Below, piece after piece: positions 58,087 to 63,472 of a stretch of 64,000 bases of DNA. The stretch is taken from NCBI GenBank assembly GCA_947466585.1, contig CANIEU010000005.1, forward strand, positions 1 to 64,000, read 5' to 3'. Under the pieces are notes generated by a model. It saw only the letters and a program-made list of their open reading frames with translations, made no database searches and was not told where the DNA came from. The position numbers and the translations under genes are program-made. The stretch is from Fibrobacterota bacterium (GTDB lineage Bacteria; Fibrobacterota; Fibrobacteria; UBA11236). Numbering within the stretch: the stretch's first letter is position 1; the number at the start of each line of letters is the position of its first letter.

Positions 58087-59226
58087 TCAGGTTTTCGCAG
58101 CGGCGAACTTCTCGATCGAGGCTAAAAATTCCTCGAACAAATAGTGCGAATCTTTCGGGCCCGGGCTGGCTTCGGGGTGGTATTGCACCGAGTAGGCAGG
58201 CAGGGATTTGTGTCGCAGGCCCGCAACGGTATTGTCGTTCAGGTTGATGTGCGTCACCTCGGCGATGGACGAATCGATGGAGGCGGGATCGACGGCGAAG
58301 CCGTGATTCTGCGAGGTGATTTCCACCTTGTGGGTGCGCAGATCCTGCACGGGATGGTTGCCGCCCCGATGGCCGAACTTGAGTTTGAACGTTTCGCCGC
58401 CGAGCGCGCGGGCGAGCAACTGGTGGCCGAGGCAGATGCCGAAGATGGGACGCTTGCCCACGAGTCCGCGGATGGTTTCCACGGCATAGTCGAGCACGGC
58501 CGGATCGCCGGGACCGTTGCTGAGCAAAATGCCGTCGGGATTGACGGCGAGCACTTCGGCGGCGGTAGCAGTCGCTGGGAACCGGATGACCTTGGCGCCA
58601 AGATCGTGCAGCTTGCGGAGAATGTTGTGCTTGGCGCCGTAGTCGATGGCGGCGATGGTCCACTTTACCGGCCGAGCGGCAGGAGCAACGAACGAGATTT
58701 CATGCTCGCCCGTTTCCCACTCGCAATTTTCGGCAACCGTGACCTTGGCCACAAAATCGGTCTCGGAGAGCGAGCGCACTTTGCGCGCCGCTGCGAGCAC
58801 TTCCTGAAGGTCGTAGGCGCCGGTGACGAGCACGCCGTTCTTGGCGCCGGTCTCGCGGAGAATGCGCGTGAGGCGGCGGGTGTCGATGCCCTGAATGCCG
58901 GGAATGCCCTGCGATTTGAGGTAGTCCGAAACGGTGGAAATTTTACCGCCGGCACGGAAGTTGGAAGGGTAGGGGCAGACGTTCTTGACCACGAAACCCG
59001 CCGCTTGGATGCGGGTGGATTCCACGTCTTCGGCATTTACGCCGTAGTTGCCGATTTCGGGATAGGTCAGCGTGACGATCTGCCCGGCGTAAGAAGGGTC
59101 GGTGAGTATTTCCTGATAGCCGGTGAGCGAGGTGTTGAAACAAACCTCGCCCTCAACGCGGGCCTCCGCGCCAAAGCCTTCGCCTTCGAAGTAATTTCCG
59201 TCTTCCAGGGCCAGAATCGCTTGCAC
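58087..59226 (-). CDS. carA: Carbamoyl-phosphate synthase small subunit
   Basis: 379 aa. N-terminal CPSase_sm domain (LALEDGNYFEGEGFG, CFNTSLTGYQEILTDPSYAGQIVTLTYP) and C-terminal class I glutaminase with nucleophile Cys in FGICLGHQLLARALGG and His/Glu in YHPEASPGPKDS. It supplies ammonia from glutamine to CarB for arginine and pyrimidine synthesis. GTG start at 59226. carB is not in the window. The upstream tat genes are separated by only 42 nt. Confidence 0.96.
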   Translation of the reverse strand: MQAILALEDGNYFEGEGFGAEARVEGEVCFNTSLTGYQEILTDPSYAGQIVTLTYPEIGNYGVNAEDVESTRIQAAGFVVKNVCPYPSNFRAGGKISTVSDYLKSQGIPGIQGIDTRRLTRILRETGAKNGVLVTGAYDLQEVLAAARKVRSLSETDFVAKVTVAENCEWETGEHEISFVAPAARPVKWTIAAIDYGAKHNILRKLHDLGAKVIRFPATATAAEVLAVNPDGILLSNGPGDPAVLDYAVETIRGLVGKRPIFGICLGHQLLARALGGETFKLKFGHRGGNHPVQDLRTHKVEITSQNHGFAVDPASIDSSIAEVTHINLNDNTVAGLRHKSLPAYSVQYHPEASPGPKDSHYLFEEFLASIEKFAAAKT

Positions 59227-59268: not shown

Positions 59269-60072
59269 TTACGCGGTTTGGGGCTGCGCGTAGTCCAGTC
59301 GCCGCTTTTCGGTGACGAGAGTATCCAACAGTTGGTCGTGGGGCTCCAAAGGTAGTTTTTTGCGCACAATCTGGGCCTCGAACGCCAGCCCGGCCCGTAC
59401 CTCGCTCCGTACGCCGCGGGCACCCAAAAAGCGATCGTAAAAGCCCTTGCCACGGCCCACACGGCCTCCCCGTTCATCGAAGGCCGTACCGGGCACCAAA
59501 ATCAGGTCGAGGGTGGGGTTGTCTTCCCCGGGCAAATCGGAGCGGGGCTCCAGAATGCCGAAAGTGCCTTCCGCAAGATCCCGGTCGTAATCGCGGATCA
59601 GAGCGAGTTTCATGTCGGTGCTCCCTGCAGGCCCGTCTTCGACTCGAGGCAGGTACACGGTCTTCCCTTCCGCAAGAGCATGCCGGATGATGCTCTCGGT
59701 GTCAATCTCTTCTCGGGTGCCGCAGAACAAGGCGAGGGACTTCGCCTGTTGATACACGGGCCATTCCCTAAGTTGGTACAGAACGGCCTGTGCGGCTTCG
59801 GCGCGGTCGGCAGAGGGGAGGGCGCGCACGGCCTCCAAGGCTTCGCGACGCAGGGCGACCTTCGCAGAGCGCACCGCATCGGCGCTTTCCTTGAGGTTTT
59901 CTTCGAGGGTCAGGGTGTCGAACTGCTGTTTCACATCGCGTTGCAGGTTGGCCCACTTGCGACGCAAGTTGCCGAGGCCGCGCGCCAGCATGCCGATCTT
60001 GGAAGGATCAATGAAGATCATGGCGACCACGAAGATCAGGCCGAGTTCGCCGATGCCGAGTGAGTCAAACAC
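59269..60072 (-). CDS. Fusion of a TatB-like domain with 5-formyltetrahydrofolate cyclo-ligase
   Basis: 267 aa. Residues 1-60 (MFDSLGIGELGLIFVVAMIF helix, PSKIGMLARGLGNLRRKW amphipathic helix) match TatA/TatB and start in the TatB-style MFD. From about 68 to 260 the sequence is a 5-formyl-THF cyclo-ligase (MTHFS/YgfA): VALRREALEAVRALPSADRAE, LALFCGTREEIDTESIIRHAL, TVYLPRV, and the catalytic LDLILVPGTAFDERGGRVGRGKGFYDRFL. The start overlaps the tatC stop by 8 nt. One open frame without interruption, so not an obvious frameshift artefact. It would anchor folate recycling to the membrane or serve both roles. Confidence 0.85.
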   Translation of the reverse strand: MFDSLGIGELGLIFVVAMIFIDPSKIGMLARGLGNLRRKWANLQRDVKQQFDTLTLEENLKESADAVRSAKVALRREALEAVRALPSADRAEAAQAVLYQLREWPVYQQAKSLALFCGTREEIDTESIIRHALAEGKTVYLPRVEDGPAGSTDMKLALIRDYDRDLAEGTFGILEPRSDLPGEDNPTLDLILVPGTAFDERGGRVGRGKGFYDRFLGARGVRSEVRAGLAFEAQIVRKKLPLEPHDQLLDTLVTEKRRLDYAQPQTA

Positions 60073-60829
60073 GGAAATTCTCCATTGCAGGGCGATCGGG
60101 GACGGTATCGTGACCCTTGCGGCCGGCGAGCGCGCAGACGCCGATGGAGACGATGTACAGGGCGCAAAGCGGCAGTGCCATCAGCAGCTGCGAGACTGGA
60201 TCGGGTCCCGGTGTGAGCACCGCGGCGAGGATGAAAATGATGACTACGGCGTACCGAAAAAAGCTCCACATTCCCCGTGCGCTAATGAGGTCGAGCCGCG
60301 CCAGCAAAAAGACCGCCACCGGCAACTCAAAGATCACGCCAAAGGCGAGCAGAAACTGAATCACGAAGGAGGCGTAGGAAGACTGCTGCCAGTTTTGATG
60401 AATGCTTCCGTTTGCGAAATTCGCCAAAAACGCGAGGCCCGCGGGAAGCACGGTGTAGTAGCAGAAGGCTGCGCCCGCGATAAACATGACGACGAACCCC
60501 AGAAAGGTTCCCAAAAACAATCGGCGTTCGTTCCGGTAAAGGCCGGGGGCTAGAAAACGCCAGACCTGCCAGGTGATCCACGGAAACGCAAGAAAGATGC
60601 CGACCACAATCGAAAGCTTGAAGGTCGTCATGACGCCTTCCATGGCGGCAAGATTGACGAGCGACACCGGCAGCTTTTGCCGGGTGATGGGCGCGGCGAT
60701 CCAATCCCAAACCACGTTTCTTTTCAAATAGGCCAGCACCGCGCCAACGACGACTCCGGCAAGCGATTTAACGAGCCGGCTGCGAAGTTCCTGGAAGTGG
60801 CTCCAGAACGTAGGGGCGTCGGAAGACAA
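60065..60829 (-). CDS. tatC: Twin-arginine translocase subunit TatC
   Basis: 254 aa with six hydrophobic helices. The N-terminal FWSHFQELRSRLVKSL is the conserved cytosolic Arg-signal-binding segment. The periplasmic/helix motif FYTVLPAG-like CYYTVLPAGLAFLANF and the C-terminal LTPGPDPVSQLLMALPLCALYIVSI are family hallmarks. It recognises RR signal peptides such as that of the enolase-superfamily protein in this window. It follows tatA by 36 nt and overlaps the TatB-like fusion gene. Confidence 0.95.
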   Translation of the reverse strand: MSSDAPTFWSHFQELRSRLVKSLAGVVVGAVLAYLKRNVVWDWIAAPITRQKLPVSLVNLAAMEGVMTTFKLSIVVGIFLAFPWITWQVWRFLAPGLYRNERRLFLGTFLGFVVMFIAGAAFCYYTVLPAGLAFLANFANGSIHQNWQQSSYASFVIQFLLAFGVIFELPVAVFLLARLDLISARGMWSFFRYAVVIIFILAAVLTPGPDPVSQLLMALPLCALYIVSIGVCALAGRKGHDTVPDRPAMENFRV

Positions 60830-60865: not shown

Positions 60866-61069
60866 TTATGCAGAAGGACGGTTTTCGGAATCGCCCGGCT
60901 TGGAAACAGCCTTCGGTTCTTCGGGCGTTTCGCCGTCCTTCATGGCACCCTTGAAGTCGCGAATGCCTTTGCCGAGGCCTTTTGCGATTTCGGGGATCTT
61001 TTTGGCGCCAAAAAGCAGGACGACGATGAGAAGGATGATGATCAGTTCGGTGGGGCCGAGATTCGGCAT
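60866..61069 (-). CDS. tatA: Twin-arginine translocase subunit TatA
   Basis: 67 aa. One N-terminal helix ([21 protein letters not shown]), the [21 protein letters not shown] hinge and amphipathic helix, and a charged, Pro/Glu-rich tail make it a standard TatA. AGGTCCCC-type sequence precedes the ATG. It leads tatA-tatC-tatB::cyclo-ligase and so probably sets the transcription of all three. It is 84 nt downstream of the rnd stop region. Confidence 0.95.
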
Positions 61070-61153: not shown

Positions 61154-62338
61154 TTACCGCTTCCGCCGGTATTTTTCCGCGGCCTTGGTCCACGGCTCCA
61201 GCAGCAGGTTTTCCTGCCATTTCATCCATTGGGCGGCTTCCCGAACGGTTTCGGGCGAGGTGAATCCGCTGGTCGCCACGGACATCATCACGGCTTTGGG
61301 AGAAAGCAGGGACGGATCGATCTCGAGCCGCGCGGCGATGCCGTCGCGGATTTCGCGCATGTCGATCAACAATTCCGGATGCGGTGCGCGTGGAGCGCGT
61401 TTGGGCGGCGGCAAAAGGCCTGGCCACGCGGTGGGCGGCAGATCCAGAGCATCCTCATAAACATCAAGCAGACGATCGCGCAGTTGAGGATTTAGGCGGG
61501 AGGGCAGACGCGGTGGTTCCTCGGGAAACCCTTCGTCGGCGACGCCTTCCGCAAACCGCAACAACAAATCGGCAGGAAGAACCTTGAAACTCGGCAGGTC
61601 GCGCTCGCTGGCGGCGGCCTCGCGCACTTCCCACATCGCCTTAAGCACGGCCAATTGGCGCGGGCGGAATCGGGACGAGCCGGTGATGCGCCATGCTTCT
61701 TCGCGGTCGTTTTCCTTCACGCGCTGCGTGGCGCGGATCAGCGTATCGCAGCTTTCGCGGTGCCAGTCGAGCCGGCCTTTCGCTTCGAGCTCGCGCGTAA
61801 GAATGCCGTGCAGCGCAGGCAGGTAGAACGTGTCTTGGGCGGCGTAGTCGACCAGATCCTGGGTGAGCGGGCGGCGCGACCAATCGGCCTTCTGGCCTTC
61901 TTTCGGAATCGTGATGTCGAAATGATGCTGGATGAGGGCGGCCAAACCGAAGGCAGAGCGTCCCAGCAACTGCGCCGCAAGCATGGTGTCGAAAATCGCG
62001 GCAGGCTTGAAGTTCTGCTGCCTCAGCATGCGCATGTCGTAATCGAGGCCGTGGCCGATCAGTGTTTTGTTGCGCAGCGCAATGTAGAGCGGCTTTACGT
62101 CGATTTTCGCGAGCGGGTCGATCAGCCAGCACCGGCCCTTCGCGAGAATCTGCATCAGGCAGATTTTGGCGTGATAGTGGTGCATGCTGTCGGCTTCGAG
62201 GTCGAAATAGACCAGCGAGGAAGCCTTGATGGCGCGGATGGCCCGGTCGAGCGCGGCAGGCGTATCCACCCATTCGGAGGGGTAGCGTGTAGCGGGGGCT
62301 GCGGGTTTAAAGAAACGGCTGAAAATTCGGGTAATCAA
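61154..62338 (-). CDS. rnd: Ribonuclease D
   Basis: About 394 aa. DEDD exonuclease domain: VYFDLEADSMHHYHAKICLMQI (Exo I DxE), LIGHGLDYDMRMLRQ (Exo II) and LVDYAAQDTFYLPALH (Exo III Y..D). The HRDC domain is at about 215-285 (FRPRQLAVLKAMWEVREAAASERDLPSFKVLP). The start is uncertain. TTG at 62338 (LITRIFSRFFKP) is the first plausible codon that does not cross the divergent trpS; ATG codons upstream would lie in trpS. Confidence 0.88.
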   Translation of the reverse strand: MITRIFSRFFKPAAPATRYPSEWVDTPAALDRAIRAIKASSLVYFDLEADSMHHYHAKICLMQILAKGRCWLIDPLAKIDVKPLYIALRNKTLIGHGLDYDMRMLRQQNFKPAAIFDTMLAAQLLGRSAFGLAALIQHHFDITIPKEGQKADWSRRPLTQDLVDYAAQDTFYLPALHGILTRELEAKGRLDWHRESCDTLIRATQRVKENDREEAWRITGSSRFRPRQLAVLKAMWEVREAAASERDLPSFKVLPADLLLRFAEGVADEGFPEEPPRLPSRLNPQLRDRLLDVYEDALDLPPTAWPGLLPPPKRAPRAPHPELLIDMREIRDGIAARLEIDPSLLSPKAVMMSVATSGFTSPETVREAAQWMKWQENLLLEPWTKAAEKYRRKR

Positions 62339-62476
62339 GCGCCAAAATCTAACAAACAGCCAACAATTACAGCGGCAGGATTTATTTTGACCTTCCGGCT
62401 GTCTGCTGTCGGGATTCGACCTCGTCTTCGGGGCCCGGGTGCAGATAGCCACACGACCCACGGCAAAGGACTCTCC

Positions 62477-63472
62477 ATGGCGCAACGCGCGCTGACCGGC
62501 ATCAAACCCACCGGCGAACCGCATCTCGGCAACTGGCTGGGCGCCATTCGTCCCGCTCTCGAGTTGGCCCGCAAATACGAGGCCTATTACTTCATCGCGG
62601 ACTATCATGCACTCACCACGGTGCATACCGGCGAGGCATTACGGAAATATGTTCGGGATATCACCGCGGCCTACCTGGCCTTCGGTCTCGATCCCGAAGC
62701 CTCCGTGTTTTATCGGCAATCCGATGTTCCCGAGATTTTCGAGTTGTCGTGGATTCTTTCGTGCTTCACGCCGAAGGGTTTCATGAACCGCGCGCATGCC
62801 TACAAGGACTTTGTGGCGCGCAACCAGAAAGCCGAGAAGGATGACGACGCGGATATCAACATGGGCCTGTTCGGTTACCCCGTGCTGATGTCGGCCGATA
62901 TTCTGATGTTCAACGCGGACGTGGTTCCCGTCGGCGCCGACCAGATCCAGCACATCGAGTTCGCCCGTGACATCGCCGAAAAGTTCAACCGCAACTACGG
63001 CGAATCCGTGTTCCATTTGCCCGAACCGCGCGTCGATGATTCGGTGAAGACCATCATCGGGCTCGACGGGCGCAAGATGAGCAAGAGTTACGACAATACC
63101 ATTCCTCTCTTTCTCGACGAAAAGCCTCTGCAAAAGCGCATCAATCAGATCGTGACCAATTCTCAGACACCCGAAGAGCCGAAGAATCCCGACGACTGCC
63201 ACGTGTTCAAGCTGCATCAGTTGCTGCTGAACGATGCGGAAGAGCAAGCGGTCCGGAAGGTGTACCTCGCGGGCGGCATGGGCTGGGGTCAGGCGAAGAA
63301 GATGTTCTTCGAAACCCTGAACGATCAGCTCAAGGCCCCGCGCGCCGAGTACAACCGCCTTCTCGCCGACCCCGGCCACCTCGATGCGGTGCTCGCGCAG
63401 GGGCGCGACAAGGCCCGCGCCGTGGCCGTGCCGTTTTTGGAGCGCATCCGGTCCCTGATTGGTGTGCGGTAA
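62477..63472 (+). CDS. trpS: Tryptophanyl-tRNA synthetase
   Basis: 331 aa class I synthetase. The HIGH-equivalent is PTGEPHLGNWLGA, the specificity pocket includes GYPVLMSADILMFNADVVPVGADQIQHIEF, and the KMSKS loop is GRKMSKSYDN. AAAGGA lies 9 nt before the ATG at 62477, which decides the start over longer frames. The divergent neighbour is rnd. Standard bacterial form with no insertions noted. Confidence 0.97.
   Translation: MAQRALTGIKPTGEPHLGNWLGAIRPALELARKYEAYYFIADYHALTTVHTGEALRKYVRDITAAYLAFGLDPEASVFYRQSDVPEIFELSWILSCFTPKGFMNRAHAYKDFVARNQKAEKDDDADINMGLFGYPVLMSADILMFNADVVPVGADQIQHIEFARDIAEKFNRNYGESVFHLPEPRVDDSVKTIIGLDGRKMSKSYDNTIPLFLDEKPLQKRINQIVTNSQTPEEPKNPDDCHVFKLHQLLLNDAEEQAVRKVYLAGGMGWGQAKKMFFETLNDQLKAPRAEYNRLLADPGHLDAVLAQGRDKARAVAVPFLERIRSLIGVR

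Follow-up and report, generated by a model that had tools for sequence, protein, structure and literature searches.

A gene joining a TatB-like domain to 5-formyltetrahydrofolate cyclo-ligase in the tat operon of Fibrobacterota

Introduction

TatB of the Escherichia coli type (TIGR01410; PF02416) has a transmembrane (TM) helix with a conserved glutamate, a hinge and an amphipathic helix, is encoded in a tat operon, and has a C-terminus that is inessential. TatA and TatB require only the TM helix, the amphipathic helix and a few residues, while the C-terminal part is dispensable (PMC13186574). In E. coli, residues 1-51 of TatB are enough for cell division (PMC9436932), and TatB with a C-terminal mCherry substitutes for TatB (PMC3732296), a case in which a folded soluble domain on the C-terminus is compatible with function. 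The second family considered here, 5-formyltetrahydrofolate cyclo-ligase (MTHFS; PF01812, TIGR02727; PDB 2jcb, 1sou, 3hy6), is likewise a known one.

The present gene encodes the two families in one protein, which shares with TatB all the features listed above and with MTHFS the whole fold and the nucleotide motif. It differs from TatB of the E. coli type in that the gene order is tatA-tatC-tatB rather than tatA-tatB-tatC, in that the hinge reads IDP or FGSKELP, in that the disordered tail is replaced by an enzyme of 200 residues, and in that it scores under the curated TatB cut-off. From known MTHFS it differs by a membrane-inserted N-terminal domain and by a helix 1 that is predicted to continue the amphipathic helix of TatB. 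The mCherry fusion was man-made, whereas here the fusion is natural and the added domain is an enzyme.

Results

The locus

The window, by which we mean the whole stretch of 64,000 nucleotides that was analysed, has on its minus strand the gene order rnd-tatA-tatC-tatB::MTHFS-carA, with the following features.

61154..62626, minus strand: rnd (RNase D), upstream of tatA (PF01612 and HRDC; same neighbour in relatives)
60866..61069, minus strand: tatA, 67 aa (PF02416 69.7 bits, TIGR01411 tatAE 74 bits)
60065..60829, minus strand: tatC, 254 aa (PF00902 221 bits, TIGR00945 197 bits)
60065..60072, minus strand: overlap of 8 nt between the tatC end and the fusion start (from ORF coordinates; relatives mostly 4 nt, 21 of 46)
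59269..60072, minus strand: tatB::MTHFS fusion gene, 267 aa, GTG start (single open frame; full-length homologues in the same genus, family, order and phylum)
59884..60072, minus strand: TatB-like domain, residues 1-63, with TM helix, hinge and amphipathic helix (TIGR01410, PF02416, model)
60016..60054, minus strand: TM helix, residues 7-19 in the model (hydrophobicity, AlphaFold2 model)
60046-60048, minus strand: invariant Glu9 inside the TM helix
59308..59862, minus strand: MTHFS domain, residues 71-255 (PF01812, TIGR02727, Foldseek)
59425..59463, minus strand: MTHFS nucleotide-binding motif RVGRGKGFYDRFL, residues 204-216 (conserved in other phyla and in 46 of 46 fusions)
58087..59226, minus strand: carA, downstream, 42 nt past the fusion stop (PF00988 and GATase)

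The original prediction had placed between 59269 and 60072 a TatA/B-type helix and hinge followed by a complete cyclo-ligase with its motif. Profiles and a structure model bear this out for one intact ORF; the coordinates hold, with the addition that the gene lies on the minus strand and runs from 60072 down to 59269. It does follow directly on tatC, as had been claimed, with its start inside the tatC ORF, and from this overlap its translation is probably coupled to that of tatC. The true start of rnd is probably inside the ORF listed above.

The source genome (98% complete) has a single MTHFS, a single TatA and a single TatC, and a genome-wide profile search found in it neither a second TatB-like ORF nor a second MTHFS, in agreement with the earlier remark that no separate tatB is seen. 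The fusion, encoded together with tatA and tatC, is the second TatA/B protein of the genome. Elsewhere in the same genome (contig C3, L268:464-1516) there is an intradiol-dioxygenase-like protein with a twin-arginine (RR) signal peptide, MDRRDFFRTAGLGG, which is likely to be a Tat client, with a match to the Tat-signal profile PF10518 that scores under its cut-off.

The TatB half

Hydrophobicity and the AlphaFold2 model both give the TatB architecture, i.e., an N-terminal TM helix, a hinge and an amphipathic helix, with a polar glutamate, Glu9, close to the start of the TM helix. Glu9 is the sole invariant residue of the domain, and a glutamate is present at residues 7-11 in 46 of 46 fusions. 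The profile scores are modest. PF02416 (TatA_B_E) matches residues 5-35 with 19 bits in a protein scan, against a cut-off of 21, and with 21.9 bits in the genome search. TIGR01410 tatB matches residues 5-79 of the whole protein with 27 bits; for the isolated domain it is the best-scoring family, with 29 bits and E 1.2e-6, and in neither case is its cut-off of 56.5 reached. When the fused N-termini of relatives are included, TIGR01410 matches 24 of 24 (best E 2.6e-13), tatAE 16 of 24 and PF02416 14 of 24; in the genome survey PF02416 alone detects the N-terminus in eleven genomes. The pooled dN/dS of the TatB half is about 0.04-0.41, and codon comparison thus places this half under purifying selection.

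The modest score of the window's protein, together with the existence of TatAC systems (PMC13186574), leads to the question whether the N-terminus has ceased to be a TatB and merely anchors the enzyme to the membrane, while Tat runs as TatA-TatC. A further point in its favour is genus g4 (see below), in which MTHFS has a TM anchor without glutamate that is constrained even in Tat-less species. The invariant Glu9, the better fit of the TatB model and the overlap with tatC in fused genomes all go against it, as does the fact that a stand-alone TatB occupies the same slot in other relatives, and that the N-terminus is gone in most other Tat-less lineages. We regard a pure anchor as quite unlikely for the window's gene. 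Between the two readings that the original prediction had left side by side, a TatB with an attached enzyme and a membrane-anchored enzyme, the first is favoured here, and the second is what is seen in the derived genus g4.

The MTHFS half and the predicted structure

The C-terminal half is recognised by PF01812 (5-FTHF_cyc-lig) over residues 71-255 with 147.9 bits (E 4e-43, cut-off 27 bits) and by TIGR02727 with 142.6 bits, over its cut-off of 84.9. Nearly all positions of the nucleotide-binding motif are invariant among MTHFS from other phyla. Within it, RxGxGxGxYDR corresponds to R204-D213, and RxGxG(4)D is kept in 46 of 46 fusions. The substrate glutamate is E122; Lys10, Arg14 and Glu61 of human MTHFS align with Lys71, Arg75 and Glu122 of the fusion. 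The pooled dN/dS is 0.11-0.25, so that this half, too, is under purifying selection by the same comparison.

The AlphaFold2 model of the fusion has a mean pLDDT of 88.5, built on an alignment of MTHFS relatives; since a single sequence supports the N-terminus, that part is less certain (pLDDT 50-75 for residues 1-30). In the model, TM helix 7-19 is followed by a break at 20-22 and by a single helix 23-83, in which the amphipathic helix of TatB continues into helix 1 of MTHFS. The enzyme part resembles the MTHFS structures 2jcb (Foldseek E 2e-17, TM-score 0.89 by target) and 3hy6. The first MTHFS helix is absent from the fusions of genera g8, g10 and g16. One genome (G007, locus L092) has an in-frame TAG within the MTHFS motif, which may be a sequencing error or mark a dying gene.

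A catalytically dead MTHFS domain that binds Tat clients or acts in their quality control as a soluble module would find a precedent in the chaperone-like activity of the extrinsic domain of TatB (PMC9436932), but is very improbable when the catalytic motif is present in 46 of 46 fusions, when the protein is the only MTHFS of its genome, and when the enzyme is retained after loss of tat.

Spread of the fusion in the phylum

The phylum was surveyed in 168 genomes for PF01812, PF00902 and PF02416, and the N-terminus of the MTHFS ORF was read in 147 of them; relatives are designated by group codes (f for family, g for genus). The domain order, which the original prediction had proposed to look for, is widespread: the full TatB::MTHFS fusion occurs in 46 of the 147 genomes, in 25 genera and in 11 of 14 family codes, and the window's protein aligns over its full length with members of the same genus, the same family and other families. 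The fusion starts at -4 nt relative to the tatC stop in 21 of the 46, and at -1 or -8 in 10. Three fusion genomes have 216-238 nt between the tatC stop and the fusion start, and in G080 tatA, not tatC, precedes the fusion. TatC is present in all 46 fusion genomes, while unfused MTHFS outside g4 comes from 20 genomes with and 14 without TatC. In g8, a second, distant tatA-tatC pair occurs beside the fused operon (L240, on G044:C10, and G024:C70) and is related to the pair of g4.

That sequencing, assembly or a frameshift should have joined two genes artificially, as a break near residues 62-70 would have indicated, is next to inconceivable and was rejected: the reading frame is continuous across the junction in 46 independent genomes, and 12 of these have no internal ATG, GTG or TTG from which the enzyme alone could start. 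By the same count, separate synthesis of the enzyme from an internal start is not general, although the window itself has a GTG at residue 67.

Lineages with separate or differently joined parts

Among the genomes of g11, g21, g28 and g31 that have Tat and an unfused MTHFS, most of those read have a stand-alone TatB of 53-54 aa behind tatC, for example MTSGIGFSEILLILVILVIFVDAKEIPGLIRKALKITRQIRAEIKKFIDEMDVK. These proteins match both the profile of the fused domain and the TatB model, and thus share slot and sequence family with the fused domain, while no MTHFS is attached to them and MTHFS is encoded elsewhere in the genome. Four of them are:

L234:1251-1412, stand-alone TatB behind tatC
L235:1259-1417, stand-alone TatB behind tatC
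L236:1232-1393, stand-alone TatB behind tatC
L237:1148-1309, stand-alone TatB behind tatC

An ORF scan limited to at least 55 aa had suggested unfused tat loci without tatB, which was rejected when the profile search found these short genes. The TatCs of the separated operons come from three families and fall into a single clade (100/99); from this follows that the separated TatB operon arose once, and it has probably spread by transfer.

In Tat-less genomes of g6, g9 and g15, MTHFS without a TM helix lies directly behind rnd, and in those of g19 it lies beside rlmB, where fused relatives have the tat operon. Judged by gene content, the tat cassette and the TatB part are gone in these genomes and the enzyme is retained. 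In g11 and g14, RNase D and MTHFS form one ORF of 583 aa, in which MTHFS follows the exonuclease and HRDC domains (L267:2542-4293 in G057; also L276 and L277), where relatives have rnd-tatA-tatC-tatB::MTHFS. A deletion that removed the tat genes in between would produce this arrangement.

In g4, MTHFS lies behind rnd and has a short TM anchor without glutamate. Some g4 species have a distant tatA-tatC pair, which forms a separate clade, and 27 of 67 g4 genomes read have no TatC and still have the anchor on MTHFS. The dN/dS of the anchor is low, 0.07, from non-independent pairs. Species without tatA or tatC that carry the anchor (MAASIVIVILVLLIFGSSPIVE...) are found at L174, L176, L183 and other loci (G021, G028, G032, G042 and others). 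An anchor on MTHFS that appears constrained in Tat-less species is unexpected. At L097 and L101 (G053 and G054, Tat-less f5), MTHFS is extended at its C-terminus, within a single ORF, by a long polytopic membrane protein that has a weak DUF2142 match.

Two further readings may be weighed against these lineages. In the first, export would be tied to the folate or ATP state through the placement of MTHFS at the Tat receptor, or a folate unit would be assembled on the membrane side. Retention across 25 genera, the g4 anchor that is constrained after loss of Tat, and the f5 polytopic proteins speak for such functional coupling; unfused MTHFS in related Tat-containing lineages speaks against it, and so does the fusion to RNase D in g11 and g14, a case in which gene order, and not function, seems to have decided what was fused. 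On balance we consider it unlikely. In the second, selection would act on membrane tethering of MTHFS itself, with TatB as the tether in most lineages, a leftover anchor in Tat-less species of g4 and a polytopic protein in f5, and 5-formyl-THF recycling would have a membrane-side role, possibly coupled to Tat export. The argument that tethering has value comes from the anchor of Tat-less g4 species, and we put this idea forward as a speculative possibility only.

Evolutionary history

Both deep halves of the phylum contain fusions in the MTHFS tree, on which the fusion state needs 6 changes; in the TatC tree, the proteins of fused members cluster by family code. One early fusion with later losses would be the simplest reading, with weak deep nodes, and the trees point to an old origin of the fusion within the phylum and to mostly vertical inheritance. 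When phylogeny is considered, the association of TatC with the TatB domain comes down to few independent contrasts, 4 to 0 (sign test, p = 0.125). Joint loss of the tat genes and the TatB domain, with these four contrasts, was therefore dropped as statistical proof and is taken as support only.

Outside the phylum, in a sample of bacteria, the fusion was found neither in 82 genomes of the KSB1 phylum nor in 28 genomes to which MTHFS loci from a variety of groups had led, and MTHFS and TatA/B are separate in all these genomes. An N-terminal hydrophobic segment on MTHFS was seen in 0 of 80 MTHFS loci outside the phylum.

Discussion

The observations are well accounted for by a bifunctional protein, which is quite probably the right description: a working TatB at the N-terminus and a working MTHFS on its dispensable tail. 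Residues 1 to about 63 would serve as TatB in the TatA-TatB-TatC translocase of this operon, with the TM helix in the membrane and the amphipathic helix on the cytosolic face, and would pair with TatC to accept precursors with a twin-arginine signal. Residues 71 to 267 would form a complete MTHFS, held on the otherwise dispensable C-terminal tail of TatB, and would use ATP to turn 5-formyl-THF into 5,10-methenyl-THF in the cytosol; the protein would stay uncleaved in the cell. We infer the activity of each half. The N-terminus is taken to be TatB because the TatB model matches every fused N-terminus compared, because of the invariant glutamate, the presence of TatC in all fusion genomes and the overlap with tatC, and because a stand-alone TatB has the same slot in unfused relatives. 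The enzyme is taken to work because it is the only MTHFS, has profile scores over the cut-offs, the intact motif and the MTHFS fold, and is retained after loss of tat. Chemical coupling of export and folate recycling is not needed to explain the data.

In the literature searched, no paper links TatB and MTHFS or describes the joined protein, in keeping with the original prediction, which knew of no described link; a Tat receptor subunit that is naturally joined to a soluble metabolic enzyme across a phylum is unreported there. The joined protein may be called a TatB of new architecture, a name kept provisional because its score stays under the curated TatB cut-off, and pending functional tests.

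The fusion is nature's parallel to the truncation and tagging experiments, in that the first two helices of TatB are nearly all that it needs and a large cargo on the tail is tolerated, and the stand-alone TatBs of relatives are near-minimal natural TatBs. For annotation it is a warning, as such a TatB is easily missed, so that the gene gets annotated as MTHFS and its genome is counted among TatAC species. It raises the question why a folate-recycling enzyme should sit at the export gate, and with an anchor under constraint in Tat-less species, a possible membrane role of MTHFS can be put to a direct test.
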